Under the pieces are notes generated by a model that saw nothing but the letters and a program-made list of their open reading frames with translations, was not told the DNA's origin and ran no database searches. From positions 1 through 28,273 of the IMG/VR virus record IMGVR_UViG_3300035035_000060: 28,273 nucleotides of DNA. One strand, written 5' to 3'. This document shows, piece after piece, positions 1 to 28,273 of the stretch. How positions within the stretch are numbered: position 1 is the stretch's first letter; every line of letters begins with the position of its first letter. The DNA is from a virus. The position numbers and the translations under genes were made by a program.

Positions 1-53
1 GAAGGGGTTTGCAGTCGTACTGCATCTGGTAAAACTATGGTGGGTAGTTCCAC
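1..53 (-). CDS. 5' end of a gene running off the left edge, proline-containing protein
   Basis: A GTG codon at 53-51 shares its first base with the TAG stop of the upstream fibre gene (TAGTG). This is the same junction style that links many genes in this window. The frame stays open for 17 codons to the edge and begins (M)ELPTIVLPDAVRLQTP. Short proline-rich proteins after the fibre genes occur in marine cyanophages, but I do not recognise this one and assign no function. An ATG at 25-23 in another frame also stays open, so the frame is not certain. The call rests on the stop/start overlap and the absence of a stop. Confidence 0.4.
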   Translation of the reverse strand, partial: MELPTIVLPDAVRLQTP

Positions 54-11574: not shown

Positions 11575-12034
11575 GGCAAAATTCTATAAATTGTATATTG
11601 TTCGGCCCATGTTCAAACTTACGTAAGAACTTGAAACCTAAAAATTGTAATAGTTTTAGATGTACGGTGTTACGAGAATCTACGATATTCCACAGTAATT
11701 TTTCGTTACGTTGTTCAAGCCAGCGTTTAGCTTCTCTTGCAAACGTAATTGGGTATTCGTGTATAGCTGGAGTGCATAGCATCCAGACTTCTCCAGTCGG
11801 CCCAACTCCGGCCATGCCAGCAGTCTTGCCGTTAGGCACTGTGAAATACACGCACAAGCCCGTTCTAGCCGCTCGTAGCAGCTCTTCCGTAGCATCTAGC
11901 CCATGACCTTCTTCGACCTCTCTGCGGTCATCTGGACGTAGATTAGAGGCCACCTCTCTGGCAGCCTCCTCTGTGATTGGGTGTATATATTCGTCTAATT
12001 TAGACACGTCTGTAAAATTTGGGTGAGAAATCAC
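11555..12034 (-). CDS. gp13-like protein, GNAT-fold, virion assembly
   Basis: This 159-residue protein is at the T7 gene 13 position between gp12 and gp14. The C-terminal half (LLWNIVDSRNTVHLKLLQFL, then GFKF) aligns by eye with the same part of T7 gp13 (LWNYVWVGNTSHIRFLKTIG). This layout is typical of acetyltransferase-like folds. The middle (GLCVYFTVPNGKTAGMAG, then WMLCT) fits the central strands of that fold. The usual acetyl-CoA loop is not clear, so it may be a structural or assembly relative rather than an enzyme. It overlaps gp12 by 35 bases and gp14 by 20. Confidence 0.7.
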   Translation of the reverse strand: MISHPNFTDVSKLDEYIHPITEEAAREVASNLRPDDRREVEEGHGLDATEELLRAARTGLCVYFTVPNGKTAGMAGVGPTGEVWMLCTPAIHEYPITFAREAKRWLEQRNEKLLWNIVDSRNTVHLKLLQFLGFKFLRKFEHGPNNIQFIEFCRVCTRS

Positions 12035-14897: not shown

Positions 14898-15508
14898 TAT
14901 CTTCTAAGGTTTCTCCATGGTTGATAGGTTTGATATGCACTATCATCTTCAAATCCAAACATACTATGATCGCCTTGATTGCACTCATACTCCATGAGAG
15001 ACGCTCTGGCTAGAGACTCCTGACCTTGTAATAATTTTACTAGGTTTGGGTTAGCAACAAGCTGCGTAGCTGCCTGTCTAGATGCTCTGTATGTTATGTA
15101 TCTTCTAAAGACAATAGGTAAGTCTTCAAATTCGTATAGTCTGACAATATCAAGATCTAGGTCAGTTGTAAATACATCTGTGTGATCTTGTTTGTCATAT
15201 AAAAATCCATTACGACGTACGAGGTTATGTGTACGACGAGCTTGGTCGTCATGTAAATCCATAGACAATATGTCATTACCAATAGCAATTCTGCCATTAG
15301 CATCTTTGGCAAACGTTACATGTTTTTCTGTGTTAAAGTGCCACCCCTCTGCCTGCGTGTCTACGTTAGCATCACGGAGTAGGTTGAATATAAATGATAT
15401 TTCTGGGTTGTCAAAATTAAGTGTTGTTATTGGCGATTGTCCAATAGCCCCCAGTATATTATTTACTGCGGACAGTTCTGTGTCGATGTCAATAGTTGTG
15501 GAAGCCAT
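14897..15508 (-). CDS. Tail tubular protein A (gp11-like)
   Basis: This 203-residue protein is close in length to T7 gp11 (196). It shows family signatures: IDTELSAVNNILGAIGQSPI near the N-terminus, then GWHFNTE and FRRYITYRASRQAATQLV. It forms the ring joining the portal to the tail nozzle. It starts only three bases after the T-tract of the terminator that follows the capsid gene. The only Shine-Dalgarno-like GGAGG upstream lies inside that hairpin, so initiation may be weak or structure-dependent. Capsid and tail genes are separated by a terminator here, as in T7. Confidence 0.93.
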   Translation of the reverse strand: MASTTIDIDTELSAVNNILGAIGQSPITTLNFDNPEISFIFNLLRDANVDTQAEGWHFNTEKHVTFAKDANGRIAIGNDILSMDLHDDQARRTHNLVRRNGFLYDKQDHTDVFTTDLDLDIVRLYEFEDLPIVFRRYITYRASRQAATQLVANPNLVKLLQGQESLARASLMEYECNQGDHSMFGFEDDSAYQTYQPWRNLRR

Positions 15509-15511
15509 AAG

Positions 15512-15536
15512 AAAAAAAAAGGAGGCCGAAGCCTCC
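15512..15536 (-). terminator. Strong intrinsic terminator after the capsid gene (T-phi position)
   Basis: On the minus strand GGAGGC, loop TTCG and GCCTCC form a perfect 6-bp stem with a UUCG tetraloop, followed by nine T residues (15520-15512). It lies between the capsid stop and the gp11 start, matching T-phi between T7 genes 10 and 11. Partial readthrough would explain high capsid and lower tail expression. Confidence 0.93.
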
Positions 15537-15550
15537 GTATAATGTGTAAG

Positions 15551-16735
15551 TTAGAAAGCAGCGTTTCCAACAGTTGTTGCTTCGCCAGCAGCGTTGCGGC
15601 TTGTTGCCACACCAGCTACGAACTCAACAGCAGCAGCAGGGTTAAGTGCATCTACACCCATAGCTAGACGTCCAAGAATAACATCACCTTGGTATACCAC
15701 TGAGATGTCTCCACTTGTTGTCTGAACTTGTGGGCCGATTGCCTCAACACAAGCAGCAGCTTCTTTTTGGAAGATAAGTCCACAGCTGTTTTCAAATGCA
15801 GATCCACCGTTACCATAAGAGTTAACAGTCTTAGTTGCAGATGAACCAGCAGTCTCATCAGCCATAGCAACTTCTACGAAGTCACCGCCTGCTCCGGGGT
15901 CTGTAACACCGGGGTTTGTGTTAGATGCAGTACCAAACTTAGTACCGAATCTGCCAAAGAATGGGATGTTCATTGACTTGAATATCTGGATTCCAGCTAT
16001 TTCAATGATTCCGTTACCTGATTGTAACGCATCTCCTCTCTCTGTACGGTTGATTAAACCGTTTGATTCTACGTTCTGGATAAGTTCGTAGTACTGTCTT
16101 GGGTTGAGTACAGCTACTCTTCCTTCTTGACCTACTCCCTTCTCATCTAGCGCAGCGGCTGCGTCGTAGAATCCGTTGATTAGACATGTAGAGTCATAAG
16201 CAGCTGTACCATCGGTAACACCTGTTCTGGTTAGTCTAATCTGTGTTCCACCGGGCTCTTTGAAGTTAGACTTCGTGATTGGTGAAGCTTGTCTTGCAGC
16301 CTTTGTGATAGCTCTGAAAGCTTTTCTGTCATACTGCTCTGCAAGAGCGTATCCGATCTTACGAGAAATTTCACCACGTAAATCGTAGTGAGCAAGTGTC
16401 TCGTCAAGTTCATAGACAAATGCACTGGAGATTAATAGATCATCAACAGTCACTGTCTTTTCAGCTACTGGAGGTGCTCCATCAGAGTTACCTAGTATGC
16501 TGTTGCCGGGTGTATGATACTCGGCTGTTGTTCTTCCTGTGAAGATGAACTGAAGTGACTTACCGTTTGTAAGTGTTCTCTTCATAATTAGGTCACGTGC
16601 TATCGTGTTCCTTTGGAAGCCTTTGAACATCTCTCCGGAAAACAATTTAAGGTATAGTGCCCTCTTGTCTCCAGTTGAGTTTGACTGACCGGGACTTGTT
16701 ATATTAGTGGTCAGTGTGCTATTTTGTTGTGCCAT
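15551..16735 (-). CDS. Major capsid protein (gp10-like)
   Basis: This 394-residue shell protein compares with 345 for T7 gp10A. Diagnostic segments include KRALYLKLFSGEMFKGF, RNTIARDLIMKRTL and SLQFIFTGRTTAEYHTPG near the N-terminus. Further on are the E-loop/A-domain segments VYELDETLAHYD and AVLNPRQYYELIQ. It assembles on the scaffold encoded upstream. No clear Shine-Dalgarno sequence precedes the ATG; the leader is AT-rich with A-runs and sits below a hairpin-rich region. A UUCG terminator follows the gene. Confidence 0.97.
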   Translation of the reverse strand: MAQQNSTLTTNITSPGQSNSTGDKRALYLKLFSGEMFKGFQRNTIARDLIMKRTLTNGKSLQFIFTGRTTAEYHTPGNSILGNSDGAPPVAEKTVTVDDLLISSAFVYELDETLAHYDLRGEISRKIGYALAEQYDRKAFRAITKAARQASPITKSNFKEPGGTQIRLTRTGVTDGTAAYDSTCLINGFYDAAAALDEKGVGQEGRVAVLNPRQYYELIQNVESNGLINRTERGDALQSGNGIIEIAGIQIFKSMNIPFFGRFGTKFGTASNTNPGVTDPGAGGDFVEVAMADETAGSSATKTVNSYGNGGSAFENSCGLIFQKEAAACVEAIGPQVQTTSGDISVVYQGDVILGRLAMGVDALNPAAAVEFVAGVATSRNAAGEATTVGNAAF

Positions 16736-16886
16736 TTCTAAGAATGATATTGGTTTACGTTTCTCAGATCTGAAATTTTTTTGGCCTTTTTTTGTGGTCT
16801 ATCCCACCGTCTAGACGGATCAAGGTATCCAGCGTACTGGGCTCTCTCCAATAGAGATGGGAGGACTTGAACCTCCCTGTACGGCC
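16736..16886 (-). other. Hairpin-rich non-coding leader of the capsid gene
   Basis: About 150 bases with no supportable gene. Inverted repeats follow one another: 16764-16773 (TCAGATCTGA), 16794-16807 (GTGG/CCAC), 16807-16818 (CCGTCTAGACGG), 16817-16830 (GGAT/ATCC), 16829-16840 (CCAG/CTGG), 16843-16857 (TCTCT/AGAGA) and 16859-16877 (GGGAGG/CCTCCC). Three consecutive members share two bases with their neighbour, so not all can form at once. Two A-runs (minus strand) flank GGCC at about 16776-16793. It could be a processing site, mRNA-stabilising leader or promoter region; no promoter could be identified by eye. Confidence 0.55.
16859..16877 (-). other. tRNA T-arm-like hairpin
   Basis: On the minus strand GGGAGG, loop TTCAAGT and CCTCCC form a perfect hairpin. 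The seven-base loop and closing G-C pair match a tRNA T-arm. Seven bases (ATCTCTA, after the last stem C) follow, like an acceptor 3' strand plus discriminator base. No convincing D-arm or anticodon arm is found upstream, so this is at most a tRNA 3' fragment. Confidence 0.4.
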
Positions 16887-16940
16887 TTAACCGATTACTC
16901 TTGTGTACTTGATGCCACGATATACGAATGTTACAGTCAT
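16887..16940 (-). CDS. 17-residue micro-ORF, DUF4278-like start
   Basis: The ORF reads MTVTFVYRGIKYTRVIG and then TAA. A GGAG sits six bases upstream of the ATG, one of the better ribosome binding sites in the window. The pattern (T)(V/L)TxxYRGxxY resembles the start of short DUF4278 proteins common in cyanobacteria and their phages. An in-frame ATG at 16952 would add four residues but has no ribosome binding site as good. The gene may be a genuine microprotein or the truncated remnant of a longer one. Little more can be said at this length. Confidence 0.4.
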   Translation of the reverse strand: MTVTFVYRGIKYTRVIG

Positions 16941-16991
16941 GGTAATCTCCATATATCCAAGCCCCGTTCCATGCTTGGGTGTCATGCGTCC

Positions 16992-17249
16992 CTATCGGGA
17001 TGAACGGACGGACAGTTTCTTCCGTCTTTTGTGATTATAATTAATCCTCTTACTACTTGTCTTTGTTCTATTGAACTTGGCCTTCTCGCCTTTAGACATT
17101 TCACCTGTAGTCTTTGGTGTTTTAGATGACACACGTCTAGATGGTCTGCAAGCTGGGTAGCCTTTACGCTTCTCACCTTTCTGTCTGCCACAGGGCTTAC
17201 CAGTTTTGGTGTCAACCCATTTCTCTTGGAACCATCTACGTAAGCTCAT
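16992..17249 (-). CDS. Small basic protein, DUF5872-like
   Basis: This 85-residue, strongly basic protein is probably a virion or DNA-associated accessory protein of unknown function. The N-terminal half (SLRRWFQEKWVDTKTGKPCG, then RKGYPACRP) matches a domain I recognise from marine phages and some large DNA viruses, often labelled DUF5872. Two Cys residues (in KPCG and PACR) are conserved there. The C-terminal half ends in a Lys/Arg-rich tail (EKAKFNRTKTSSKRI). Its ATG lies in a four-base ATGA overlap with the upstream gene. A 77-codon frame at 16982-17215 covers the same DNA but shows no family resemblance. Confidence 0.75.
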   Translation of the reverse strand: MSLRRWFQEKWVDTKTGKPCGRQKGEKRKGYPACRPSRRVSSKTPKTTGEMSKGEKAKFNRTKTSSKRINYNHKRRKKLSVRSSR

Positions 17250-17410
17250 CTTCTTTTTGCTTTGCTATAACCGGGGGCAGTCTTCTTCTTACCACCAGCT
17301 TTGACTTGACCCTTACATACTTTGACACCATAGGCGTTAGCGTATGCAGAAGGGTATACTTTGAATTTTCTTTTGGCAGCTGCTTTACCACGTGGACATA
17401 ACTTACCCAT
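17246..17410 (-). CDS. Small basic protein with KVYPSAYAN motif
   Basis: This 54-residue gene reads MGKLCPRGKAAAKRKF, then KVYPSAYANAYGVKVCKG and a Lys-rich tail ending SKAKRR. The KxYPSAYANAY...VCKG pattern recurs in small proteins of marine phages and some large viruses; function is unknown. Cys5 and Cys32 could pair or bind metal. It starts in a TGATG overlap with the 18-codon ORF upstream and ends in an ATGA overlap with the next gene, so translation is probably coupled on both sides. Confidence 0.8.
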   Translation of the reverse strand: MGKLCPRGKAAAKRKFKVYPSAYANAYGVKVCKGQVKAGGKKKTAPGYSKAKRR

Positions 17411-17466
17411 CAGCGTTTCTTACCTCCATGCTTGCAGCCACATTTTGATCCTTTCTTGTGTGCCAT
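17410..17466 (-). CDS. 18-residue Lys/Cys/His-rich microprotein
   Basis: The ORF reads MAHKKGSKCGCKHGGKKR. It begins with a TAATG overlap on the previous gene and ends with a TGATG overlap on the next, so it fits exactly between two genes. CGCKHGG gives a cluster of two Cys and one His that could bind a metal ion. It has no family I can name. The exact fit on both sides supports real translation, although it could act mainly as a coupling linker. Confidence 0.6.
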   Translation of the reverse strand: MAHKKGSKCGCKHGGKKR

Positions 17467-17657
17467 TATGCTCTTGGGATTTTAATTTTTGATCTAATTT
17501 TATCATCATTAACTCTACCAGCACCTAAGTTTGGCATGTATTTACGCATGCCGGGATCGTACTTGATAGGTGTGCTTGGGCCATCGTTGAGAGCGATAGC
17601 CTTCTTGTTACCTTTGCGAACCTTTTTAGATCCGTCTTCTGAATAAGTGATTGCCAT
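17466..17657 (-). CDS. Small conserved-type phage protein, unknown
   Basis: This 63-residue basic protein begins MAITYSEDGSKKVRKGNKKA and contains DPGMRKYMPNLGAGRVND near the end. I see no membrane segment or catalytic motif and do not recognise a family. It is joined by TAATG overlaps at both ends and belongs to the tiny-gene train between scaffold and capsid. A virion or capsid-assembly accessory role is possible from position only. Confidence 0.7.
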   Translation of the reverse strand: MAITYSEDGSKKVRKGNKKAIALNDGPSTPIKYDPGMRKYMPNLGAGRVNDDKIRSKIKIPRA

Positions 17658-17860
17658 TATGCTTTACCTTTTTTCTTTTTCTTTCGATTAAAGATCTCAT
17701 CCATTAACATATCTCTACCGGCATCTTCTCTGGCTTTTTTGTTCTGCCTAGCTTCTAGTATATCCCTCTCTATTTCGTAGTCAGGGCCAAGCTGTGCAAG
17801 TCTTTTTCTCTCGCTAATAGTGCGAGTCATCCTTCCTTTTTCGTCGTATGTTTTAGCCAT
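17657..17860 (-). CDS. Small charged helical protein, unknown
   Basis: From the ATG at 17860 the protein has 67 residues, starting MAKTYDEKGRMTRTISERKR and ending in a Lys run (NRKKKKKGKA). It is predicted to be mostly helical and highly charged. The frame is open to 17953, but the 17860 ATG forms a TAATG overlap with the preceding stop, the rule in this cluster. Two other in-frame ATGs lie just upstream (in MEMLM). No family is recognised. Confidence 0.7.
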   Translation of the reverse strand: MAKTYDEKGRMTRTISERKRLAQLGPDYEIERDILEARQNKKAREDAGRDMLMDEIFNRKKKKKGKA

Positions 17861-18108
17861 TAGCATTTCCATCTGCGTAAGGCAAGTGCCTTTCTTGTGG
17901 GCTTGCCGTTTGGTTTTTTGAGCGGGCCTTTCATGCCAGACATGCGAGCACAAAATGACCTCTTTCTAGCCCCTCCTCCGGGCTGTGGAGCTTTGAGATT
18001 AGAGCCAGTGGCACGATTGTACTTGGCTCTACCTTTAGCTGTCAGGCCGCCTTTGCGGCTCTTCTCACCTCTTCCGAGAGACAGGCTTACTCCCTTTTTT
18101 CTTGCCAT
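17860..18108 (-). CDS. Small basic protein, DUF6321-like
   Basis: This 82-residue protein has an ordered set of conserved-looking segments: GVSLSLGRGEKSRKGGLTAK, GRAKYNRATGSNLKAPQPGG, KRSFCARMSGMKGP and KPTRKALALRRWKC. The combination matches a small-protein family seen in many phages (labelled DUF6321 as I recall), function unknown. Two Cys residues lie in SFCAR and at the C-terminus. It overlaps the upstream gene by 44 bases in another frame. The Gly/Lys/Arg-rich composition would suit nucleic-acid or capsid-interior binding. Confidence 0.8.
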   Translation of the reverse strand: MARKKGVSLSLGRGEKSRKGGLTAKGRAKYNRATGSNLKAPQPGGGARKRSFCARMSGMKGPLKKPNGKPTRKALALRRWKC

Positions 18109-18220
18109 TTTTTCTTAGTTTTGCGAAGTCTGCTCCTGTGATTTTATCTCGGGGTGGTGCTACTCTGGCGATCTTCATTTGACCGGCAGAGTACTTCTTC
18201 TTACCAGCTGGCTTAGGCAT
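18065..18220 (-). CDS. Small basic protein, unknown
   Basis: From the ATG at 18220 the protein is 51 residues: MPKPAGKKKYSAGQMKIARV, then APPRDKITGADFAKLRKN and a basic tail. The frame continues upstream to 18253, but the 18220 ATG shares a base with the hli stop (TAATG). AxPPRDKITGxDFxxLR recurs in small proteins of marine phages, without known function. It overlaps the next gene by 44 bases. Confidence 0.75.
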   Translation of the reverse strand: MPKPAGKKKYSAGQMKIARVAPPRDKITGADFAKLRKNGKKKGSKPVSRKR

Positions 18221-18354
18221 TACCAAATACCGGGTATGATTTGCCCTGTCCAAGCGTAGTTGAGTAGAGCTGCGACTATGCCTATCATAGCTAGTCTTCC
18301 GTTAAGCTCCTCTGCTGGATGCCATTTCTGATTTTCGTGGTTGTGGTGTGTCAT
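18220..18354 (-). CDS. hli: High-light-inducible protein (Hli), phage-encoded
   Basis: This 44-residue photosynthesis auxiliary protein binds chlorophyll in thylakoid membranes and protects the photosystems. After a His-rich leader (MTHHNHENQKWH), the signature ELNGRLAMIGIVAALL (about 16-31) is the single chlorophyll-binding helix with ExxNGRxAMxG. It ends TGQIIPGIW, the standard Hli C-terminus. Glu16, Asn18 and Arg20 are the expected ligand and salt-bridge residues. It starts in an ATGA overlap and ends in a TAATG overlap. Cyanopodoviruses often carry hli, with psbA, between scaffold and capsid genes; here psbA is absent. The identification is strong despite the length. Confidence 0.92.
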   Translation of the reverse strand: MTHHNHENQKWHPAEELNGRLAMIGIVAALLNYAWTGQIIPGIW

Positions 18355-18581
18355 GCTTCGTTTACATTATTTGATGCTTTTTTATTTCTCTTGAATACCT
18401 TGTCGGCATTTTGTTTAAACTTGTTGATGTTTCTTAGATCATCAAGGTAAGGAGTAGAGAATACACTCTTACCTTTTGCCAGTCGTGGAGCTGGCACGTA
18501 TGGATTTTTGGGATCTTCTTTTGGTGCTTGGTAAGGCTGGCCGGGAGATCCACCTTTTCCCGGCTTTATCTTTCTAGCCAT
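18351..18581 (-). CDS. Small basic protein, unknown
   Basis: This 76-residue protein begins MARKIKPGKGGSPGQPYQAP. It is proline-rich in its first half and then has SVFSTPYLDDLRNINKF and a charged helical tail. It starts in a TAATG overlap with the 41-residue gene and ends in an ATGA overlap with hli. I recognise no family. It is probably co-translated with its neighbours; a structural or assembly role is a guess from position. Confidence 0.7.
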   Translation of the reverse strand: MARKIKPGKGGSPGQPYQAPKEDPKNPYVPAPRLAKGKSVFSTPYLDDLRNINKFKQNADKVFKRNKKASNNVNEA

Positions 18582-18706
18582 TATCTTCTGGATTTAACTC
18601 CTTTCTTTTTGTTAGCTTTTTTTAGTTTTTCAAGAGCCAACTTTTTCTTCATGGCTGGTGTCATTTTGCCTTTAGCTGGCATTGATTTTCCGTAATGTCC
18701 GGGCAT
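18581..18706 (-). CDS. 41-residue Lys-rich protein
   Basis: The gene begins two bases after the scaffold stop and reads MPGHYGKSMPAKGKMTPAMK, then a Lys/Ala/Leu-rich helix ending KKKGVKSRR. The MPAKGKMTPAMKKK type of sequence recurs in short genes of marine phages. Its stop overlaps the next ATG (TAATG). With nearly half its residues basic, it may bind nucleic acid; this is inference from composition. Confidence 0.7.
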   Translation of the reverse strand: MPGHYGKSMPAKGKMTPAMKKKLALEKLKKANKKKGVKSRR

Positions 18707-18708
18707 GG

Positions 18709-19509
18709 TTAAAACTCCAAGTTGTTTGAACGATCTAGTTTTTCAATTATGTCTTGTCTGTAAGCAGGGTCATTGTCATAACGAGGATCACTCATTGCTC
18801 TGACTAACTCTTGCTGACTGCGGAAGACATCGCCGCCTGTTTTTGGTGGTTTACCTGTGTACATTTTTCCTTCAAATCCATTAGCTGCTTCGTACTGTGA
18901 CTTCAAGCCTGCAACAGCTATGTTGATAGCCTGCACACTTCCTGTAGCTACGATGCTATCGAAAGCTTCTTGTGCTTGTGCATCTAGATTATCTTGTGCC
19001 CAACCTATGATGTTGGAATAAGCCTGCTCTCCACCAACTGAGTTTTTAACTTGGTTGATTTCTGCATCTGAAAGATCAGTCGTGTCTGACGACCGGGCTT
19101 GAAACTCAGGTGTACCTTGTACTTCTAAGTATGCTTCGACTAGCTCTTTGCTAGACATAGAGGAGAACTTCTCAAGAGTCTCTTCTGAGAGCTTGCCGTC
19201 ATTGGCATAGAACTCATCGTTAGCTGATGTAATTAAAGAAGCACCGTCAGAGAGCGTAGTCTCCTCCGGCTCCTCATCAGCTGACTCTTGTTGTACTTCT
19301 CCCTCCTCTCCGTTTTCTCCTAACTTTTTCTGCAACTCTATGTAAGCCTTCTCAAGCTCTGCTGCATCTTTATATTTACCAGCCAGTAACGCTTCCTGAT
19401 CTCCTTGCAGCTTTTCACCAATCTCAAGATTCTCTTGCTCTTCTGGTGTTAAGCTTGTAGCTATGGTTTCAGTGGTTGTTTCTGGTTGGTATGATAATGT
19501 TTCTGCCAT
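18709..19509 (-). CDS. Capsid assembly / scaffold protein (gp9-like)
   Basis: This 266-residue acidic, Glu/Gln-rich, helical protein lies between portal and capsid, the T7 gene 9 position (T7 gp9 is 307). Typical segments are EALLAGKYKDAAELEKAYIE, the common scaffold motif of a glycine-rich turn followed by a Leu/Glu helix, and YNNIIGWAQDNL-like sequence (YSNIIGWAQDNL) in the second half. It directs prohead assembly and is then released. The ATG follows the portal stop immediately. Family membership is well supported by position and composition. Confidence 0.9.
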   Translation of the reverse strand: MAETLSYQPETTTETIATSLTPEEQENLEIGEKLQGDQEALLAGKYKDAAELEKAYIELQKKLGENGEEGEVQQESADEEPEETTLSDGASLITSANDEFYANDGKLSEETLEKFSSMSSKELVEAYLEVQGTPEFQARSSDTTDLSDAEINQVKNSVGGEQAYSNIIGWAQDNLDAQAQEAFDSIVATGSVQAINIAVAGLKSQYEAANGFEGKMYTGKPPKTGGDVFRSQQELVRAMSDPRYDNDPAYRQDIIEKLDRSNNLEF

Positions 19510-21120
19510 TTATTCTGGTGGTGATGTTGTTTCTCCAAAGTTTTCTGTTGCTGCTCCTAGTCCTAGATTCTCTCCTAGCTGTTGTACACCCTCTGGGTTC
19601 TTACTTGGATCCATGAGAGGTGAGCTTGCTAGTTGTCCAGCTTGTCCTAGTAGCTGTTGCTGAGTTGCCATAGCTTGTTGCTGTTGCATCTCAGCCTCCA
19701 TAGTTTCTGGAGACTTGACTAAGTTGAGTACATCAATACCTTGTGCAGCTGCTAATCTCTTGATAGCTTCGGTAGGATCTATGAATCTCTGTAAAGCGTC
19801 TGGCCCCAGAGTCTGAGCTATAGTTCCGATGAACTGTGTTAGTGCCTGTTGATCCTGACCTCTACCTAGAGCATTGACTCCAGCTACGATCTTTGGTCTT
19901 ACCAAGTCTTTTGGTAGTCTAGGTATTTGATTTCCTCTTTGCATGACTAGAAGTATCCTGTTCAAGTATGGTATCAGGAACTCAACCGTCAGTAGAGAGA
20001 ACAGTCCTCCAAGGGATTGCTCTAGTTCTAGCTGAGTTAGGCGTACCTCTTCAGCTGTAACACGCTCTGCCTGCCTGACGTTCATAACCAAGAAAGCTTC
20101 TAGTATTCTTTTTTCTATTTGTGTAGACAAGTTAGCAGCTGTCGCAAAGTCAGCCGTCTTACCTACTTGCACTACTCCTACGTCCTCTGGCCTACCTTGT
20201 ATGATAGCTCCATTGCCTGCCTTGGCTAGTGTTCCGGGTTTGGTTGTAGCTGATGGTGAGACAAGAAAGATAACTTTACTTGCTACACTAGCACCTTCTA
20301 CTAGAGCTTGAGCCAATCCATTGAGACTCCTTAGATCCCCAATAAACTCCTCTACTCTACCTCGTCCATAGTCTTCACCATCGACAGTGTTAAATCGAAG
20401 CACCAACCAAGGTGAAGCGTTCTTGGGAGCTGTACTGCGTGACCCGGGAAGTACTTGTCCATCGACTTCCTGATGCCATAGCCAGCGTCCACTACCTTCA
20501 TCCAATCGTACGTAGGTGTATACCTCTGCGTCGTCTTCATCTGAGCTATAGTCGCCGTTTGCTTCCTTCGACGGTACTTGACGCTCAAGACCAAGTACTT
20601 TTCTATCAATCATTTCTTTTGTAACTATCTCTAAGACGTTACCATTACCATCTCTGTTGACTACAAACCTGTTCAAAGGGTAGTGCTTCAAGCCATCTTT
20701 GGACATGAAGATAAGAGCATTACCTGAGACTATCAAATGCTTCAGTGCTTGATGGACAACCACTCTGTCACTTGATGCAGCTATGTACTCCATGATGTTT
20801 CGTTCTATCTTTGAGAATGATAGATCTAACTCACTTCTAGTCTGCGGGTCTATCTCTTCACCTATCTTATCATCTCTGATCTGTAGTTTGAAGAAGGCTG
20901 TCTGTGGTGGTAGCATTGCTAACATTAGCTTTGCTGACAACGTAACTACAGCTTTAGCTCCGACTGATTGGAAGGGCTGTAGTAAAGTTCTTTTACCTTT
21001 GTAATTATCATCACGAGTTACAAGGTATGGTAAGGTAAGCTCAGAGGCTTCTACAGCCACGTCAAGGAACTGTGTTCTACCTGACTCTAACTGACTGTAG
21101 CGTTCTCTAGCTTTAGACAT
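19510..21120 (-). CDS. Portal / head-tail connector protein (gp8-like)
   Basis: At 536 residues it equals the length I recall for T7 gp8. The N-terminus (KARERYSQLESGRTQFLDVA) and segments such as LTLPYL, QSVGAKAVVTLSAKLMLAML and PPQTAFFKLQI are characteristic of T7-like portals. VRQAERVTAEEVRLTQLELE and the Gln-rich C-terminus (about 475-500) also fit. The dodecameric ring sits at one capsid vertex, where DNA is packaged and later leaves. Its start overlaps the gp7.3-like gene by eight bases. Confidence 0.96.
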   Translation of the reverse strand: MSKARERYSQLESGRTQFLDVAVEASELTLPYLVTRDDNYKGKRTLLQPFQSVGAKAVVTLSAKLMLAMLPPQTAFFKLQIRDDKIGEEIDPQTRSELDLSFSKIERNIMEYIAASSDRVVVHQALKHLIVSGNALIFMSKDGLKHYPLNRFVVNRDGNGNVLEIVTKEMIDRKVLGLERQVPSKEANGDYSSDEDDAEVYTYVRLDEGSGRWLWHQEVDGQVLPGSRSTAPKNASPWLVLRFNTVDGEDYGRGRVEEFIGDLRSLNGLAQALVEGASVASKVIFLVSPSATTKPGTLAKAGNGAIIQGRPEDVGVVQVGKTADFATAANLSTQIEKRILEAFLVMNVRQAERVTAEEVRLTQLELEQSLGGLFSLLTVEFLIPYLNRILLVMQRGNQIPRLPKDLVRPKIVAGVNALGRGQDQQALTQFIGTIAQTLGPDALQRFIDPTEAIKRLAAAQGIDVLNLVKSPETMEAEMQQQQAMATQQQLLGQAGQLASSPLMDPSKNPEGVQQLGENLGLGAATENFGETTSPPE

Positions 21121-21382
21121 TTAGTCCTCCTGTACCAGCACCACCGCCACCGCCTGTATTGACGTTGATCTTTAGTGCATCTGTTCCGGTTTTCTTACCA
21201 GCACCGGGGCTGCTCTTCTTCTGTCCTGAGCCATACTGTACTTCAGCAGTATCATCTGGATCAAGAAGTTCTTTCTTTTCTGGTTTTACAGCTTCTTGTT
21301 TTTGTTGTTGAACTTTAGGCTGAAATGTTTGTTGTGGCCCGGGTAGGGGTGTTGACCTACGGCCACCTCCGAATACACACAT
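21113..21382 (-). CDS. gp7.3/gp6.7-like small virion protein
   Basis: This 89-residue low-complexity protein lies directly upstream of the portal, where T7 has gene 7.3. It begins MCVFGGGRR; T7 gp6.7 and gp14 also begin MC. It has a Gln/Lys-rich middle and ends with GQKKSSPGAGKKTGTDALKI and a Gly-rich tail closing GGLNV. T7 gp7.3 has a similar Lys/Gly-rich end (GGKKSL, then GGGINI). In T7 these small proteins are virion components needed for adsorption or tail assembly. The homology is judged by eye from short motifs, so moderate confidence. Confidence 0.6.
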   Translation of the reverse strand: MCVFGGGRRSTPLPGPQQTFQPKVQQQKQEAVKPEKKELLDPDDTAEVQYGSGQKKSSPGAGKKTGTDALKINVNTGGGGGAGTGGLNV

Positions 21383-21383
21383 G

Positions 21384-21569
21384 TTATTCTTCTAGTATAG
21401 ATTTAATATATTGTACCACTTCCCATTGTCCGGAGCGATACATAATGGAGGCTAAGTCCTCCTTGGGGTGGACAGGATACCAAGCGAACTTGGATTCCAA
21501 ATCCTCTACTAACGTCTTAAGTTTTTCTGAATGAAAGTTAAGCGTATTGGGGGAGGTTTGTATTTGCAT
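21384..21569 (-). CDS. Small protein after the RNR genes, unknown
   Basis: From the ATG at 21569 the protein is 61 residues: MQIQTSPNTLNFHSEKLKTL, then VEDLESKFAWYPVHPKED and a C-terminal YRSGQWEVVQYIKSILEE. The frame is open to 21632, but that start would overlap the RNR beta gene by 95 bases and add residues of unusual composition; the chosen start overlaps by 32. I see no membrane segment or known motif. Its place between nucleotide-metabolism and head genes gives no clear hint of function. Confidence 0.6.
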   Translation of the reverse strand: MQIQTSPNTLNFHSEKLKTLVEDLESKFAWYPVHPKEDLASIMYRSGQWEVVQYIKSILEE

Positions 21570-22251
21570 GTTCAAAGAACGCTGGCATGCGAGCTGCTTT
21601 TGTGTCGGCAAACTGTGGTGCTTTGCCTTCATACATCAGCCGGTCGCTCGCATCCAGCCAAAATGATTTGTCTAAATATTTATCCGGTGAAGTTTTTAAG
21701 GGGTTTAGTACCCATGCGATAGTTGCTTTCCGAAGCTTATCCAAAGAATTGCTAGGAACAAGACCCAGCTCACGACATACGAGACTATTAGTCGCAACGT
21801 GTATTTGTTCATCTCTGGAAATATCAGCTGATACTGTTCTAAGAGCAGCATCACCAAGAAAGCGAAACATAGGTAATAGAACAAAGAATATAGCTCGCTC
21901 TGCAACGAGTGCTTTGAGTATAGTGTGGTCAGGATGTTGTATCCAAGCATCTCTTAATCTTATCGCCTCCATTTCAGCAATCGGATCAGACCCATGGGAT
22001 TCAACAATGAAACCCAGAGCGAGATCATGCTTGATCTCATCTTTAACGTTTGACTCAAGAAGTGTCCTCGCTGCTTCCGGGACTTCTTTGTCCAAGCCTT
22101 GTGAAATAAATTCTCCAACTGGTAGCTCCATATGACGTATTGCGAGAGCACGCTTGATGGTTTCTTCAGCACCAGATCTTACCTCCCCTTTGGTGGGTTT
22201 TACGGGAGTCCATGTTCTTTTTCTTTCTAATAATTTTGTATAAGGGTTCAT
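21538..22251 (-). CDS. nrdB: Ferritin-like di-iron protein, ribonucleotide reductase beta (small) subunit-like
   Basis: This 237-residue helical protein carries the spaced ligands of a di-metal carboxylate site: E42, E72-x2-H75, E118 and E148-x2-H151. That is the layout of class I RNR beta subunits. The radical tyrosine of E. coli NrdB lies four residues after the first His; here that place is L79, so no Tyr radical is expected. It follows the alpha gene with an ATGA overlap, which supports a partnership. As I recall, reannotation of cyanopodovirus RNRs recognised a class I enzyme with a tyrosine-less beta subunit next to alpha; this pair fits. It is much shorter than E. coli NrdB (about 375). 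Metal type is unknown. Confidence 0.75.
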   Translation of the reverse strand: MNPYTKLLERKRTWTPVKPTKGEVRSGAEETIKRALAIRHMELPVGEFISQGLDKEVPEAARTLLESNVKDEIKHDLALGFIVESHGSDPIAEMEAIRLRDAWIQHPDHTILKALVAERAIFFVLLPMFRFLGDAALRTVSADISRDEQIHVATNSLVCRELGLVPSNSLDKLRKATIAWVLNPLKTSPDKYLDKSFWLDASDRLMYEGKAPQFADTKAARMPAFFEHANTNLPQYA

Positions 22252-23621
22252 TGTTGGCAGTCACATTCGATTTTGTTATCAAGAATACCATCCAAATAAT
22301 CCTGTATGTCAGTATCTCCAAGTGCTGCATAAGCGTCAGACTTATCTTGGACATCACCCATAACTTGTAATGAATAGTACAAAGAGGTCTGTGGACTATG
22401 TAGCCACTCCTCTATAAAAGCTTCATCATATCTAATCATGTCGCTCCAGCTGTTGAAGCTGTAGCCATGAAGCAATCCTGTCCTATCGAGCATGGTCATG
22501 ATTTCGTCTGCTACACGCTTATATGCGTCCCATCCTACTTCACTTGCAATCTCAACGTTTCCATAGTTGACTCTTTCTACTCCGAACTCGCCAGAGTCTC
22601 TGTCAACCATCTTTGCTATTGGTGGTGCTATCTCGGGTGTGCATGTAAAGCCGTCTAGGTCTCTACTGCGATAGCTGCAACTGGCAGTGGGTGCAATAGC
22701 GAACGCCCTTACCATATTGTTTTCTCTTGCAATCTGAGCTGCTTCAAAGATTGCATTGTTTAATGCCCAAGCGGCACAGCCTGCTTCGTTACTTGCGGAG
22801 TGGCCAAGGTTTACCAAGCGGAGTGCCTCTCCGAATTTCTCGTACGTGATGTTGTATCTTCTGAGGAAGTTTGCAAGACCGAGCACTCCAAGCCCCACTT
22901 GTCTGTCATTGTCTGGGGTAAGGTATTCTCCAGATTCTCCAACACCTGTCCTCCCATGGAGATCGCACAACTCGGACATACCTGTAACGAAAGCCTCTTG
23001 TAGATTGTCGAGTGTACAGGAACCGAGATTGACATGCTGTAACAAGCACGTTCCACGTGAGGGCAAGTATACCTCAAGACAGACGTTTCCATAGATACGC
23101 TCCCCGGCCTCTGTGTATTTGATTTTGTTGAGCCAGATGTCTCCTGATTTGATTCCATAAAGTAAAGCGTCCTTTGTGTCTTGGTCTGCGAACTTCCACA
23201 TCTCATCGTCGATGTCAACACAACGCTTGACCCAAGGCAGTTCTGTTCTGGAAGCTGTAATAAAGTCTACCACGTCTGGGTGGCATAGGTCTAGGTGCAA
23301 TACGATAGCACCATTCTTGTAAGCTCCACCTCTTCTCAAGGTTTCATTTAGAGCTGAATATATTTTGCCGAAGCTGACTGGGCCAGTAGCCACAAGTCCT
23401 TTGTCATTTGTATGACCGGCTGGTCTAAGCTTTGATAGGTGGATTGCACAGCCAGCACCAAATCTTAGTGCGTGACTTGCGAACCTCCAGCTAGCTTCGA
23501 TGCCGTTGTCCCCTTCCATGCTGTCTTCAACAACGAAGGTTGTGCATGATACAGGTAGTCTTGATGTAGGATCGTCGATCCAAGACTGTACCCGTCCAGT
23601 GCGGGAGATTAAGTTAGACAT
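22248..23621 (-). CDS. nrdA: Ribonucleotide reductase alpha (catalytic) subunit, compact cyanophage type
   Basis: At 457 residues it is far shorter than E. coli NrdA (761) and lacks the N-terminal ATP-cone. Catalytic residues are all visible: C26 (LPVSCTTF) and C192 (GTCLLQ) as the redox pair, N179-x-C181-x-E183 as the active-site triad, and the phosphate loop PTASCS at 311-316. Tandem Y415-Y416 match the radical-transfer tyrosines of class I enzymes. The C-terminal C453-x-C455 can accept electrons from thioredoxin or glutaredoxin. It reduces ribonucleotides for phage DNA synthesis. Relatives have been labelled class II, but the tyrosine pair and the adjoining beta gene argue for class I. It starts one base after the NblA-like stop. 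Confidence 0.92.
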   Translation of the reverse strand: MSNLISRTGRVQSWIDDPTSRLPVSCTTFVVEDSMEGDNGIEASWRFASHALRFGAGCAIHLSKLRPAGHTNDKGLVATGPVSFGKIYSALNETLRRGGAYKNGAIVLHLDLCHPDVVDFITASRTELPWVKRCVDIDDEMWKFADQDTKDALLYGIKSGDIWLNKIKYTEAGERIYGNVCLEVYLPSRGTCLLQHVNLGSCTLDNLQEAFVTGMSELCDLHGRTGVGESGEYLTPDNDRQVGLGVLGLANFLRRYNITYEKFGEALRLVNLGHSASNEAGCAAWALNNAIFEAAQIARENNMVRAFAIAPTASCSYRSRDLDGFTCTPEIAPPIAKMVDRDSGEFGVERVNYGNVEIASEVGWDAYKRVADEIMTMLDRTGLLHGYSFNSWSDMIRYDEAFIEEWLHSPQTSLYYSLQVMGDVQDKSDAYAALGDTDIQDYLDGILDNKIECDCQQ

Positions 23622-23622
23622 T

Positions 23623-23787
23623 TTAAATAAAGTTTATTATGTTTTTTAGATTGTTTGTTAGTACAAAGTTTTGTTTTTGTAAAGCAAGGAAGAGAGTAAT
23701 TATTTCTTCCTTGTTTCTATCGTAGTTTTCTCTGAGCTTATTCTCAACTAACTTCAATTTGAACTCCTGTTCCAGAGTTAATTTCAT
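23623..23787 (-). CDS. nblA: NblA-like phycobilisome degradation adaptor
   Basis: From the ATG at 23787 the protein has 54 residues, the usual NblA length (about 55-65). The start MKLTLEQEFKLKLVENKL matches the conserved NblA start (LSLEQEFxIRxxExQV). The second half (EEIITLFLALQKQNFVLTNN, then LKNII) matches the second helix (FLVxLYRQMMMxExxYKxLL). In cyanobacteria, NblA brings Clp protease to phycobiliproteins to dismantle the antenna. Phage-encoded NblA is known from cyanophages, including uncultured marine ones. The gene overlaps the exonuclease end by 44 bases, and RNR follows after one base. An upstream in-frame ATG at 23835 would add 16 unrelated residues. Resemblance was judged by eye. 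Confidence 0.72.
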   Translation of the reverse strand: MKLTLEQEFKLKLVENKLRENYDRNKEEIITLFLALQKQNFVLTNNLKNIINFI

Positions 23788-24508
23788 ACTCGGGCGTAGG
23801 TGTCCAGAGTCTTGGTTCTTGCTTTTGGGAATCATAGTCCTCGTTTGTAAGTATTCTGGCTAGCCTTGCATTACAAAGAGCATCTTCTTCTGTCAGCCCT
23901 TTGTCTTCAAAAGCTTTGACAACTGTAGCCCAGCTGTAGCCCTCTTTCTCGAAAAGAGTAGTTGCTCTCTTCACTCCGATCCCGGGAACGCCACTGTAGC
24001 CATCTGTCTGGTCGCCTGCAAGCGTCTGAATCAGATGCCACTTCGCACCCTCTTCTGGTGTGATCGTGATGGTGTCTTCGAGATTGTATAGCTTACCGGG
24101 GATCTGTTTCATGTCTTTGTCAGGAGAAACAATGATATTCCCTGTAAGTTTGGTGGCATAGATGCCCATAGCATCATCGGCCTCCAGTTGTGGCATGACG
24201 ATAACATCATACTCAATTTTAAGTCCTGATATGACACGTTTGTATCCACAGGGCTTTTTTCTGTTTCTGTGACCCTTATAATCTGGGTAAATTTTTTTCC
24301 GAAAATTTTTAGAGTCGCTAAAAAACAGTGTTGGCTTCGCAAAAGAGCCAAATTGCATTTGTATGTTCGATATTTCACGTTTTACGGCACTATAGGCTTC
24401 TGAAAAGTTAGAAGTCACTAATATTACGTCTTCTCCGTAGTCTATCTCTGTTTCACAGGCTGCACAGCACTTGTATACTATGTAGTCTGCATCAATTAGT
24501 AATTTCAT
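23744..24508 (-). CDS. 5'-3' exonuclease (gp6-like, FEN family)
   Basis: This 254-residue nuclease is at the T7 gene 6 position. Metal-binding acidic residues appear in order: LLIDADYIVYK, the arch region with IYPDYKGHRNRKK, QLEADDAMG, VSPDKDMKQIPG, then GDQTDGYSGVPGIGVKRA with the helix-hairpin-helix that binds DNA. In T7 gp6 degrades host DNA and removes RNA primers. Nucleotides released by gp3 and gp6 would feed the phage, complementing the RNR genes downstream. The C-terminal 44 bases overlap the NblA-like gene. Confidence 0.94.
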   Translation of the reverse strand: MKLLIDADYIVYKCCAACETEIDYGEDVILVTSNFSEAYSAVKREISNIQMQFGSFAKPTLFFSDSKNFRKKIYPDYKGHRNRKKPCGYKRVISGLKIEYDVIVMPQLEADDAMGIYATKLTGNIIVSPDKDMKQIPGKLYNLEDTITITPEEGAKWHLIQTLAGDQTDGYSGVPGIGVKRATTLFEKEGYSWATVVKAFEDKGLTEEDALCNARLARILTNEDYDSQKQEPRLWTPTPEYEINSGTGVQIEVS

Positions 24509-24515
24509 GGTGGTT

Positions 24516-25778
24516 TTAGTGTACGTCAGCCCAAGTATATCCGATCTTAGCTTCTGCTGCGATGGGACACCTTAGATTGTAGTGTTCGCCTGCCAATCTG
24601 GCGGCTGTTTCGAGCCATTTTGCAAATTCTTCTGCAAATCTTGGATAACATTCGTAGTTTAGCTCGTCATGTACGAATGAGAGTTGATGTCCGTCGGGTG
24701 GTAGACATTCATTCACAATCACCATCCATCTTTTGGCGATCGTCGCTGCTGATCCCTGTAAGAGGTAATTGAGAAACTTATGCCCTTTGTCAACGCTGAT
24801 ACGACGACCGTCGATGGCGTTTGCATAACCTCTTTTGCTAGCTTTCTCGCAAGCGAGTAGCAAATCTGCAAGACCCGGAATGGCAGCAATATAAGCCTTA
24901 CGAATCTCTGCCCCTTTGACAGCAGCGGCCTTTTCGGACAATAGCTTATCATAGCTGTATCCTAGTTTGGTATTCCCAGCCCCGTAGAGGAAGGCATAGG
25001 TAACTGTTTTAACTTGTCGACGGGTGATTCCAATCCTGTCGGCATTTGTTTGATGAATATCCCCCGTAGTAAGTATTCGTTGATACCGGCCATTATCATA
25101 CCTCGAAAGGTAATGAGCAAGCATACGGAGCTCAATGCCACTAAGATCGGCAGACACCATTTGATAGGTAGGCGTGGCCCGGAATAATTTTCTGAATCTT
25201 TCATCTGATGGTACTTGTGCTAAATTTGGTTTTCTGTGTGCACATCGAAATGTGCTGGTGGCAACCCCGCAGTGGTGATGTATACGATTACACGTCGTAG
25301 ATAGCTTCTGCCATGCGTTCACGCCTTCCGAGATCATCCCCAATTTCTTGGTAATATCTAGACATTTCAGAAACAAGAGGGCTGTCTCCGACCCAATATC
25401 TTTCAATACTGTCTCGTCTACGACCGGCTTGCCGGTGGCTGTTCTCTGTGTTGGTTTCCAATTTTCGTGGGTCTGTAGTATCCATGCTATGTGGTCTCGT
25501 GAGGTGGGGTTAAGTTGTTTAAGTTTTGTAAATGGGCATCCTTGTACGTACCCTTGTGTCCGGTTATTTCGCTTAGGTGTAAACACTGTTCCAGCAACGA
25601 ACCCGTATTTTCTGCGTAATATTTCTGTAGCTTCTTCCAGTTCTCCTCTGAGAGCTGATTCGAGCTCGTAGGCTGCTCGTTCGTCGAAATACCATCCATG
25701 TTCTTCTTGTTTTTGTAAGATGTGTGCGACCTGATGTTCTAGTTGTACCCAGTCAGGTAAGGGTGGAAATGTTGGCAT
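24516..25778 (-). CDS. DNA polymerase, polymerase-domain ORF (gp5 C-terminal part)
   Basis: 420 residues of family A polymerase. Motif A is SADLSGIELRMLAH with D211. Motif B is RRQVKTVTYAFLYGAG with K257, Y261 and Y265. Motif C is FVHDEL with H370, D371 and E372, so all catalytic residues are present. Like T7 gp5 it has LEHQVAHILQKQEEHGW before the thumb. The thioredoxin-binding insertion is reduced: about 30 residues separate RRKYGF from NPTSRDHI, against over 70 in T7. The 3'-5' exonuclease domain lies on a separate ORF in another frame, overlapping by 40 bases. A TAA in this frame sits six bases before the ATG, and there is no ribosome binding site. Confidence 0.93.
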   Translation of the reverse strand: MPTFPPLPDWVQLEHQVAHILQKQEEHGWYFDERAAYELESALRGELEEATEILRRKYGFVAGTVFTPKRNNRTQGYVQGCPFTKLKQLNPTSRDHIAWILQTHENWKPTQRTATGKPVVDETVLKDIGSETALLFLKCLDITKKLGMISEGVNAWQKLSTTCNRIHHHCGVATSTFRCAHRKPNLAQVPSDERFRKLFRATPTYQMVSADLSGIELRMLAHYLSRYDNGRYQRILTTGDIHQTNADRIGITRRQVKTVTYAFLYGAGNTKLGYSYDKLLSEKAAAVKGAEIRKAYIAAIPGLADLLLACEKASKRGYANAIDGRRISVDKGHKFLNYLLQGSAATIAKRWMVIVNECLPPDGHQLSFVHDELNYECYPRFAEEFAKWLETAARLAGEHYNLRCPIAAEAKIGYTWADVH

Positions 25779-26281
25779 AGTTTATTTGTAACAATAACGT
25801 CTTGTTCGCAATAGTCCTCCATCTCCTTGCTCCATGCTGACCAGTCGGCAGTCTGTCCAAAGTTCCCTTTGTATTCTCCCAACCTGTGGCCATAGGACTC
25901 CAAAGAGTGGCGACCATAGAGTTTTGGTGGCATACCGTCAATCCTTGCCTTGCGGTCTACCTCTAGCATATCGGGGTGGTACAACCTCGACAGCAATAGT
26001 GTGTCTATAACTCTACCCTTCGGTTCAAAGAATGGGTAGACTTTCTTTATCATCGGTATGTCAAAGCCAATGATGTTGTGGCCAATGATCGTGTCAGCAT
26101 CCATAAGATACGTGACACCTCTGCTGATTGGCTCGGCAGTTCCTGTGTCGTTGTATCTGGTAGTCTCACCTGTCTCATAGTCAAGTGTGACCAAGCAGTG
26201 CAGCTCAACGTTCCTTTGATCTAGGGGTGTTGTTTCCAGATCGAACAGGAGGGTAATAGGTCTTGTCTCTGAATTTTGCAC
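25739..26281 (-). CDS. DNA polymerase, 3'-5' exonuclease-domain ORF (gp5 N-terminal part)
   Basis: 180 residues with a complete DEDDy proofreading domain: exo I FDLETT (D14, E16), exo II IIGHNIIGFDIPMI (N69, D74) and exo III EDYCEQDVIVT (Y157, D161). The ORF ends at TAG after HFHPYLTGYN. Read with a -1 shift just before the end, the protein continues HPYL-PDWVQLEHQVAHIL, which is what an intact T7-like polymerase shows here. The product may therefore be a separate proofreading subunit, the result of a frameshift, or an assembly indel. The first codon is GTG (26281-26279) with a weak ribosome binding site. The nearest upstream gene, primase/helicase, ends 32 bases away. Confidence 0.92.
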   Translation of the reverse strand: MQNSETRPITLLFDLETTPLDQRNVELHCLVTLDYETGETTRYNDTGTAEPISRGVTYLMDADTIIGHNIIGFDIPMIKKVYPFFEPKGRVIDTLLLSRLYHPDMLEVDRKARIDGMPPKLYGRHSLESYGHRLGEYKGNFGQTADWSAWSKEMEDYCEQDVIVTNKLCQHFHPYLTGYN

Positions 26282-26313
26282 GTCTTTTCTGTTCTTTGGT
26301 GGGTGGGTTTGGT

Positions 26314-27909
26314 TTAAAAATCTGTAGCTGGGTTGAACTCAACTGTGTCTTCGGGTTTAGTTTCATAGAATTGGCAGGTAGATAGGTCATAGCTCAGAGT
26401 TGTAGCAACTCCAACCTCTCCTGAGAAACGGTTTTTAAGCACTCTAAGAGTTGTAAGGTTAGCGTTAGCCTCTCCTTGCTGGTCTCGTTCCAATGCGATG
26501 ACGCTATCGCTGAGTTGAGCGATCGAATGAGATCCTCGTAGCTGGCCAAGAGAGACACGTCCCCCTTCTTCGTGTGAGTTACTGTCACTGTTTGTTCTCC
26601 GTAGGTGTGATACTAAAAATAGTGCGATACCTGTACGTTCGACTAATGATCTGAGCTTCGTCATTGTCGAGTCTATCATACGTCTTTCATCGCCGTCAAG
26701 ACCACTTAATAATATAGAAAGATGGTCAAGAAATATAATACGGCACTCCAGTCCACTGGCAAGGTACTCGATCCTGTTGTAAATAACATCTGGGTCAAAG
26801 CTACCAAAGCCATCAAACAGAAAAACATTCCACTTTGCAAGAGTATCAGCAAAAGCAGACTCGAGTTCTTCTTTGTCATGTTCTCCAATGTGATAGGGTT
26901 TACCAACGGCTGCGGACATAAGTCCTAGTGCCGTGCGTTTGTTGTTTGCTTCAAGCTCAAGGATACCAACTGTCTCACCTTTCTGTGCAAGATCAGCTGC
27001 GATAGCCCTGACCAGTGAAGTCTTACCACTACCTGACCCAGCTGTAAGAGTTGTTAGCTCTCCATATCTGATGCCATGTAGTTTATCATTGAGCCCCTCG
27101 AATGGGTACTCGTGGTCACAGGTTTTGGTAGGCTCTGTGACTAGCGACATGAGGTTTTTACCATCTACGATACCGTCTGGCCTGTATGGCTTGGCATCCC
27201 ATATCGCTCTTCTTATTGCGTCTTTGTCGTCAGCTTGGAGTGCATCGCTTGCATCTTTGTAAGCATCGAGTCTAGCAATCTTAACCCTACCGGCTGGTAA
27301 TATACTCGAGGCAGATTCAACGGCCTCACGCCCTGCGTCGTCGTTGTCGAAGAAGAGGACGATCTCTTGGTAGCCTTGCAAGAAGGGTATGGCTTTCTGC
27401 AAGTCTTTTTTGGCTGCTGCCGCACCATGAGGTAAGCTGACCATCGGCCAACCTGACATAACTTCGTAACAAGAGGCAGCATCTAGTTCTCCTTCAGTAA
27501 TGACAATTCTTTTGCCAGTTGTAGGAAATAGGTGTTGACCAAAAAGTGTTCCTGTAGATTCGCCTTCGTAATGGAAGTCTTTTGATTTAGTTTTAATTTT
27601 GAACCCAGCAAGCCTTCCATCGTCTGTGTAATATGGGAAACGTAAGGTATTACCGTATCTGTAGATTCTGTAGAAGGAGTTGGTGGCTTCGCTGATTCTT
27701 CGCTTATTGAGCTGCTCGGGTTGTCCGAGGAAGTTTGCTCTGTCATTATTCATTCTGGGTGTATAGTTGTCCCCGTCACTCGGGGTGTACGTCTGGCACG
27801 CAAAGCAGTACGCATGGCCGTCAGAGTAACGTGAGTTAGCGTCCGACGAGCCACAGTTGTTACATGGTTCGTGTGCCACAAATTCTGATTCTGTGTTCAT
27901 CTTAACCAA
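26314..27909 (-). CDS. DNA primase/helicase (gp4-like)
   Basis: 531 residues, near T7 gp4 (566). The N-terminal zinc ribbon has C16, C19, C35 and C38 (CNNC...CFAC). The TOPRIM primase core shows VITEGELDA (E139, D143) and FFDNDDAG (D188, D190). The C-terminal RecA-like helicase has Walker A GSGSGKTSL (about 291-299), Walker B CRIIFLDHLS and HLRRTN. It unwinds the fork and lays RNA primers for the polymerase encoded next. It overlaps the endonuclease gene by 13 bases. Confidence 0.96.
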   Translation of the reverse strand: MVKMNTESEFVAHEPCNNCGSSDANSRYSDGHAYCFACQTYTPSDGDNYTPRMNNDRANFLGQPEQLNKRRISEATNSFYRIYRYGNTLRFPYYTDDGRLAGFKIKTKSKDFHYEGESTGTLFGQHLFPTTGKRIVITEGELDAASCYEVMSGWPMVSLPHGAAAAKKDLQKAIPFLQGYQEIVLFFDNDDAGREAVESASSILPAGRVKIARLDAYKDASDALQADDKDAIRRAIWDAKPYRPDGIVDGKNLMSLVTEPTKTCDHEYPFEGLNDKLHGIRYGELTTLTAGSGSGKTSLVRAIAADLAQKGETVGILELEANNKRTALGLMSAAVGKPYHIGEHDKEELESAFADTLAKWNVFLFDGFGSFDPDVIYNRIEYLASGLECRIIFLDHLSILLSGLDGDERRMIDSTMTKLRSLVERTGIALFLVSHLRRTNSDSNSHEEGGRVSLGQLRGSHSIAQLSDSVIALERDQQGEANANLTTLRVLKNRFSGEVGVATTLSYDLSTCQFYETKPEDTVEFNPATDF

Positions 27910-28262
27910 TCAATGGGGATTGCGTGTGCTGCCGCCCATTTGATGTTGTGTTTCTCACACCATTGGGCGTATGTAGTTTTGGATTTCTTACTGATCTTGT
28001 TGAACGGTGCTTGGAAGACCATACGAATATCAAGGTGTGGGTTGTCACGGATGACGGCCTTGATCTTGCGTCTGTCCTGTGCATCCCAGTAACCTTTGGT
28101 TTCTAGCATGATGCCGTTGAGCAGTACGAAATCAGGATTGTAGGTATGCTGTATGGTATAAGGAACTTGCTCGCCCTCATACACATACTTGCAACCCACT
28201 GTATCTAGCAGATCAGCAACGCTGACCTCTAGCTTAGACTTAAAAGTCTTCTTCTTCTTCAA
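27897..28262 (-). CDS. Endonuclease I, Holliday-junction resolvase (gp3-like)
   Basis: At least 121 residues, against 149 in T7 gp3. The active-site cluster PDFVLLNGIMLETKGYWD has D44, E54 and K56, with the same 10- and 2-residue spacing as D55, E65 and K67 of T7; E12 is the likely partner of T7 E20. The enzyme resolves branched phage DNA and nicks host DNA. The first codon shown is TTG, and the frame stays open to the window edge, so the true start may lie outside and the 5' end is uncertain. It overlaps gp4 by 13 bases. Confidence 0.9.
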   Translation of the reverse strand: MKKKKTFKSKLEVSVADLLDTVGCKYVYEGEQVPYTIQHTYNPDFVLLNGIMLETKGYWDAQDRRKIKAVIRDNPHLDIRMVFQAPFNKISKKSKTTYAQWCEKHNIKWAAAHAIPIDWLR

Positions 28263-28273
28263 TGCTATCTTCG

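Follow-up and report, generated by a model that had tools for sequence, protein, structure and literature searches.

The window analysed here, the whole 28,273-base stretch of a virus record whose nearest cultured kin are marine T7-like cyanophages, carries a short nblA-like gene on its minus strand, between a T7-like exonuclease gene and a gene for ribonucleotide reductase (RNR). The best explanation, to which we assign a probability of about 87% taken as a whole, is that the source is an uncultured marine T7-like cyanopodovirus of clade-B-like affiliation, whose nblA makes a helix-turn-helix NblA protein that would trigger antenna breakdown. The family and its mechanism are already known, and the window gene is a further member from an uncultured lineage. 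The relevant features are as follows.

23623..23835, minus strand: nblA-like gene in its most likely full extent (70 aa, MIPKSKNQDSGHLRPSMKLTLEQEF...IINFI), from the ATG in 85/85 relatives, the TAT bias in the exonuclease frame and the P-SSP7 annotation
23623..23787, minus strand: NblA-family core of 54 codons, the ORF of the preliminary description, covering Pfam NblA profile positions 1-47 (ORF, Pfam and profile matches)
23744..23835, minus strand: overlap with the exonuclease 3' end in a different frame, 92 bases (44 from the start given in the preliminary description), from the frame positions
23744..24508, minus strand: T7-like 5'-3' exonuclease (gp6-like), upstream neighbour (Pfam 5_3_exonuc_N, E 4.9e-11)
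22248..23621, minus strand: ribonucleotide reductase large chain, downstream neighbour (Pfam Ribonuc_red_lgC, E 5.1e-20)
21538..22251, minus strand: ribonucleotide reductase class Ia beta-like protein, the gene after the RNR large chain (phrog_6799, E 2.2e-125)

When the frames of the window are read, the 54-codon frame, MKLTLEQEFKLKLVENKLRENYDRNKEEIITLFLALQKQNFVLTNNLKNIINFI, runs from 23787 down to 23623, and a plus-strand reading of the same interval meets many stops. The preliminary description, which left the strand unstated, had the 54 codons and their coordinates right, but probably not the start codon. It also placed the beginning of the ORF within the exonuclease gene and its end one base before RNR, and the coordinates agree: the 5' part lies inside the exonuclease ORF, and a single base separates the nblA-like stop from the RNR ATG (23621). 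Several other traits of the window were recorded. DNA polymerase occupies two overlapping minus-strand frames, an exonuclease part and a polymerase part (24516-25778 and 25739-26281), and is annotated in the same split form in S-TIP37 and P-SSP7. A gene for a 44-aa high-light-inducible protein (18220-18354, minus strand; phrog_178, E 1.6e-17) lies between the scaffold and capsid genes. This scaffold-capsid region (15551-19509) contains no psbA, unlike P-SSP7, which has hliP and psbA; both genes are present in nearly all clade-B phages (PMC9381782). GC content is near 39% in the tail/capsid half (1-16000) and near 45% in the replication half (16000-28273), with a step between the two.

By tblastn, the nblA-like gene has relatives in 36 phage records and in no fewer than 288 IMG/VR stretches. 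A tblastn count of the neighbours places the exonuclease upstream in 77/77 loci long enough to test and RNR downstream in all 70 testable loci; counting by short motifs misses divergent loci. Among 19 close relatives, pN/pS is 0.20 in the part of the frame without exonuclease overlap, whereas the other two frames of the same part give 1.5 and 3.1 and contain many stops, and this part of the nblA-like frame is under purifying selection. Given these relatives, this selection and the constant place between exonuclease and RNR, the ORF is not a chance frame; it is a maintained protein-coding gene, conserved in marine T7-like cyanopodoviruses. The window gene shows all the features of a cyanopodovirus nblA orthologue, namely the exonuclease-RNR position, the overlap with the exonuclease, the kept start and the ALQKQNF motif. 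Because of that overlap, the gene is often left unannotated or given a wrong start, and many records, including that of S-TIP37, lack an annotation for it.

The start proposed in the preliminary description, the ATG at 23787, is probably wrong. Only 10 of the 85 sequences, each closely related to the window, have ATG there, and most of the others have a threonine codon, whereas an in-frame ATG 16 codons upstream, at 23835, occurs in 85/85. The exonuclease tyrosine codon overlapping this upstream ATG is TAT in every one of the 85 sequences, while the remaining tyrosines of the same exonuclease frames are TAT in 285 of 615 cases and TAC in 330; the codon is fixed as TAT because the ATG overlaps it in another frame. 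The sequence AACGAGGACT, a plausible ribosome-binding site, precedes the ATG at 23835 and has AAGGAGT as its equivalent in S-TIP37, and the P-SSP7 homologue PSSP7_019A, a later annotation, begins at the equivalent codon. On these grounds, the ATG at 23835 is most likely the real start, which would give a protein of 70 aa and the 92-base overlap.

Membership of the NblA family, as first proposed for this ORF, is borne out by Pfam, by the relatives, by profile-profile comparison, by the predicted two-helix layout and by a published assignment. The window protein matches a single Pfam family, NblA (18.9 bits, E 0.0021, positions 1-47 of the 50 in the profile; 16.8 bits in a whole-genome Pfam search of the window). 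The profile search suggested in the preliminary description thus returned the expected family, but both scores of the single sequence lie below the PF04485 gathering cut-off of 25 bits, which is an operational threshold and not a biochemical feature. Among 29 relatives, 24 match Pfam NblA at E <= 0.1, with a best E of 2.8e-7. A profile of the phage family aligned with a separate cyanobacterial NblA alignment (three cyanobacterial genomes supplying 14 copies, with Ma-LMM01 added) over the whole core, with an hhalign E of 2.9e-7, a probability of 93% and 51 columns. Against an HMM of NblA built without cyanopodovirus sequences, the window protein scored 16.0 bits, a value reached by 1 of 20,000 shuffles. 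Weak matches of the phage profile to PDB sequences (E 0.11-0.13) were confined to the NblA structures 2qdo and 2q8v. The window protein also falls into phrog_27006 (E 5.3e-14), and since this PHROGs family carries no function, automatic annotation would likely miss the NblA identity.

The AlphaFold2 monomer of the 70-aa protein has helices at residues 21-36 and 38-69 (mean pLDDT 77, pTM 0.46), and its leader, with pLDDT below 50 at residues 1-8, is predicted to be disordered. In this monomer model, a short helix followed by a long one reproduces the NblA-like layout in a core of the expected ~50-65 aa, in keeping with the helix-turn-helix anticipated in the preliminary description. No meaningful match came from Foldseek or VIA searches of the PDB or from a Foldseek search of BFVD, and we place no weight on this, because helical hairpins of such small size suit these methods poorly.

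The closest known counterparts are the NblAs of marine T7-like cyanopodoviruses (S-TIP37, S-CBP1/3/4, S-RIP2 and P-SSP7 PSSP7_019A), which are orthologous, occupy the same exonuclease-RNR place with the same overlap, and share about 46-54% identity with the window protein over ~50 residues. The 2025 study by Nadel is said to have worked with S-TIP37, whose orthologue has a position equivalent to that of the window gene. Many of these relatives have a longer C-terminal tail and ~560 bases with an extra gene before RNR (MazG in S-CBP1), whereas the window protein ends at IINFI without a tail, and its gene abuts RNR. PMC9602691 credits Nadel 2019 with predicting nblA in 14 isolates of cyanopodoviruses; in its account, the cyanopodovirus NblAs form their own cluster, apart from and distant to freshwater phage NblA, and the cyanomyovirus nblA groups with picocyanobacterial nblA. 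Uncultured marine cyanophages (Nadel 2019) and the cyanomyoviruses S-SCSM1 and S-TIM5 are further marine carriers. The freshwater Microcystis phage Ma-LMM01 also bears nblA, likewise adjoining a ribonucleotide reductase gene (nrdA), but its aligned NblA shares just 22% identity with the window protein. In its own stretch, the Ma-LMM01 nblA (4899-5138) overlaps the end of nrdA, the same pairing in an unrelated phage.

Cyanobacterial NblA (PF04485) resembles the window protein in its length, its LTLEQEF N-terminus (LTLEQEFKL is common to both), its short plus long helix and the whole-core profile alignment, but identity in the alignment is 25-31% and a short loop insertion is present. The ALQKQNF core, strongly kept in the phage family, distinguishes the phage side, the surrounding FLALQKQNF region being absent from host NblA. 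The C-terminal lysine, nearly invariant in the aligned host NblAs, is Asn in the window protein and variable among phage relatives, including S-TIP37. Work on Anabaena NblA reportedly found this lysine to be needed for phycobilisome binding, but we do not count it among the firm hallmarks of the family. Cyanobacterial genomes were reached through psbA, and their Pfam NblA copies were then taken; the Ma-LMM01 NblA, used as a query against genome contigs, gave no match. Nor was PF04485 matched at E 0.1 in any of six picocyanobacterial genomes or in Prochlorococcus MIT 9201. In the case of Synechococcus, the missing match may reflect no more than a Pfam model that is too narrow, since a divergent nblA-like gene has been reported in Synechococcus WH8102 (PMC7439483). 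A phage-profile search of 151 RCC307-family genomes returned two matches, one of them a phage fragment. This divergent fragment, at 1438-2422 of its contig, keeps the exonuclease-NblA-like-MazG order and encodes an NblA-like protein of 95 aa.

Under the best explanation, the 70-aa protein (54-aa core) would be made alongside nucleotide-metabolism and replication genes, and its neighbours, among them the exonuclease, polymerase and RNR genes, point to co-expression with the replication genes. Cyanobacterial NblA links phycobiliproteins to ClpC for degradation (PMC7966870). In the same manner, the phage protein would attach to phycobiliproteins and couple them to the ClpC chaperone of the host, after which Clp protease would degrade the antenna, freeing amino acids and lowering light capture during infection. 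Dimerisation into the four-helix bundle of NblA, binding to the phycobilisome and ClpC, bleaching and a benefit to the phage are features that we infer by analogy, from the literature on relatives. According to PMC9602691, S. elongatus loses phycobilin through the action of nblA genes recovered from marine viral metagenomes, and PMC12892361 cites Nadel 2025 for the degradation of host light-harvesting complexes by an oceanic cyanophage NblA. Nadel 2025 reportedly also links NblA of marine cyanopodoviruses to an effect on the photosynthesis of the host.

Other readings of the locus were weighed against this one. That the frame is no gene at all, but an artefact of the overlap with the exonuclease 3' end, might be suspected from its partial location within that gene and from its missing annotation in many records; the selection tests refute this reading, which we reject as having a negligible chance of being correct. 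A pN/pS of 0.20 outside the overlap, against 1.5-3.1 in the other frames, speaks for a coding sequence, and the start codon is kept in all 85 sequences at the cost of the exonuclease's free choice of tyrosine codon. An unrelated two-helix phage protein that came to resemble NblA by convergence of short amphipathic helices is also highly improbable, if somewhat less remote. The short sequence, the score of the window protein under the Pfam cut-off and the lack of an assigned function for phrog_27006 would fit such convergence, but the best E-values of the relatives and of the profile-profile comparison (2.8e-7 and 2.9e-7), the rarity of comparable scores in shuffled controls and the LTLEQEFKL motif, also found in cyanobacterial NblA, argue against it. 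In addition, nblA was assigned to cyanopodoviruses independently, as PMC9602691 indicates.

The preliminary description took the gene to indicate a phycobilisome-containing host, and this is not supported: the Prochlorococcus phages P-SSP7, P-SSP3 and NATL1A-7 carry orthologues, while Prochlorococcus has neither phycobilisomes nor nblA (PMC7439483), so a phycobilisome-bearing host does not follow from the gene. In their stretches, the intact orthologues lie at 1450-1761 in P-SSP7 and at about 1450-1650 in NATL1A-7. The protein might be an NblA-descended Clp adaptor re-purposed for another target, such as a host protein that harms the phage, Prochlorococcus phycoerythrin or the Pcb antenna, with phycobilisome loss not its main role. 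The intact orthologues in the three Prochlorococcus phages, the conserved phage-specific motif around FLALQKQNF and the absence of the C-terminal lysine seen in almost all aligned host NblAs speak for this reading, which we nevertheless regard as unlikely. Against it stand the light-harvesting complex degradation reported for an oceanic cyanophage NblA (PMC12892361) and the fact that most cultured carriers of the gene infect Synechococcus. Moreover, clade-B phages as a group infect both Synechococcus and Prochlorococcus (PMC9381782), so infection of Synechococcus may be what maintains the nblA-like gene.

Collectively, an NblA acting on the antenna remains our preferred reading, and the only part that would be surprising is how the gene acts in Prochlorococcus phages. 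It is unlikely that the NblA-derived protein of T7-like cyanophages is a general Clp adaptor with targets beyond the phycobilisome; if true, such a role would explain the intact gene in Prochlorococcus phages. Phage NblA ties infection to antenna loss in ocean picocyanobacteria, and the resulting drop in global photosynthetic light capture is estimated at up to 5% in a 2026 review that cites Nadel 2025 (PMC12892361).
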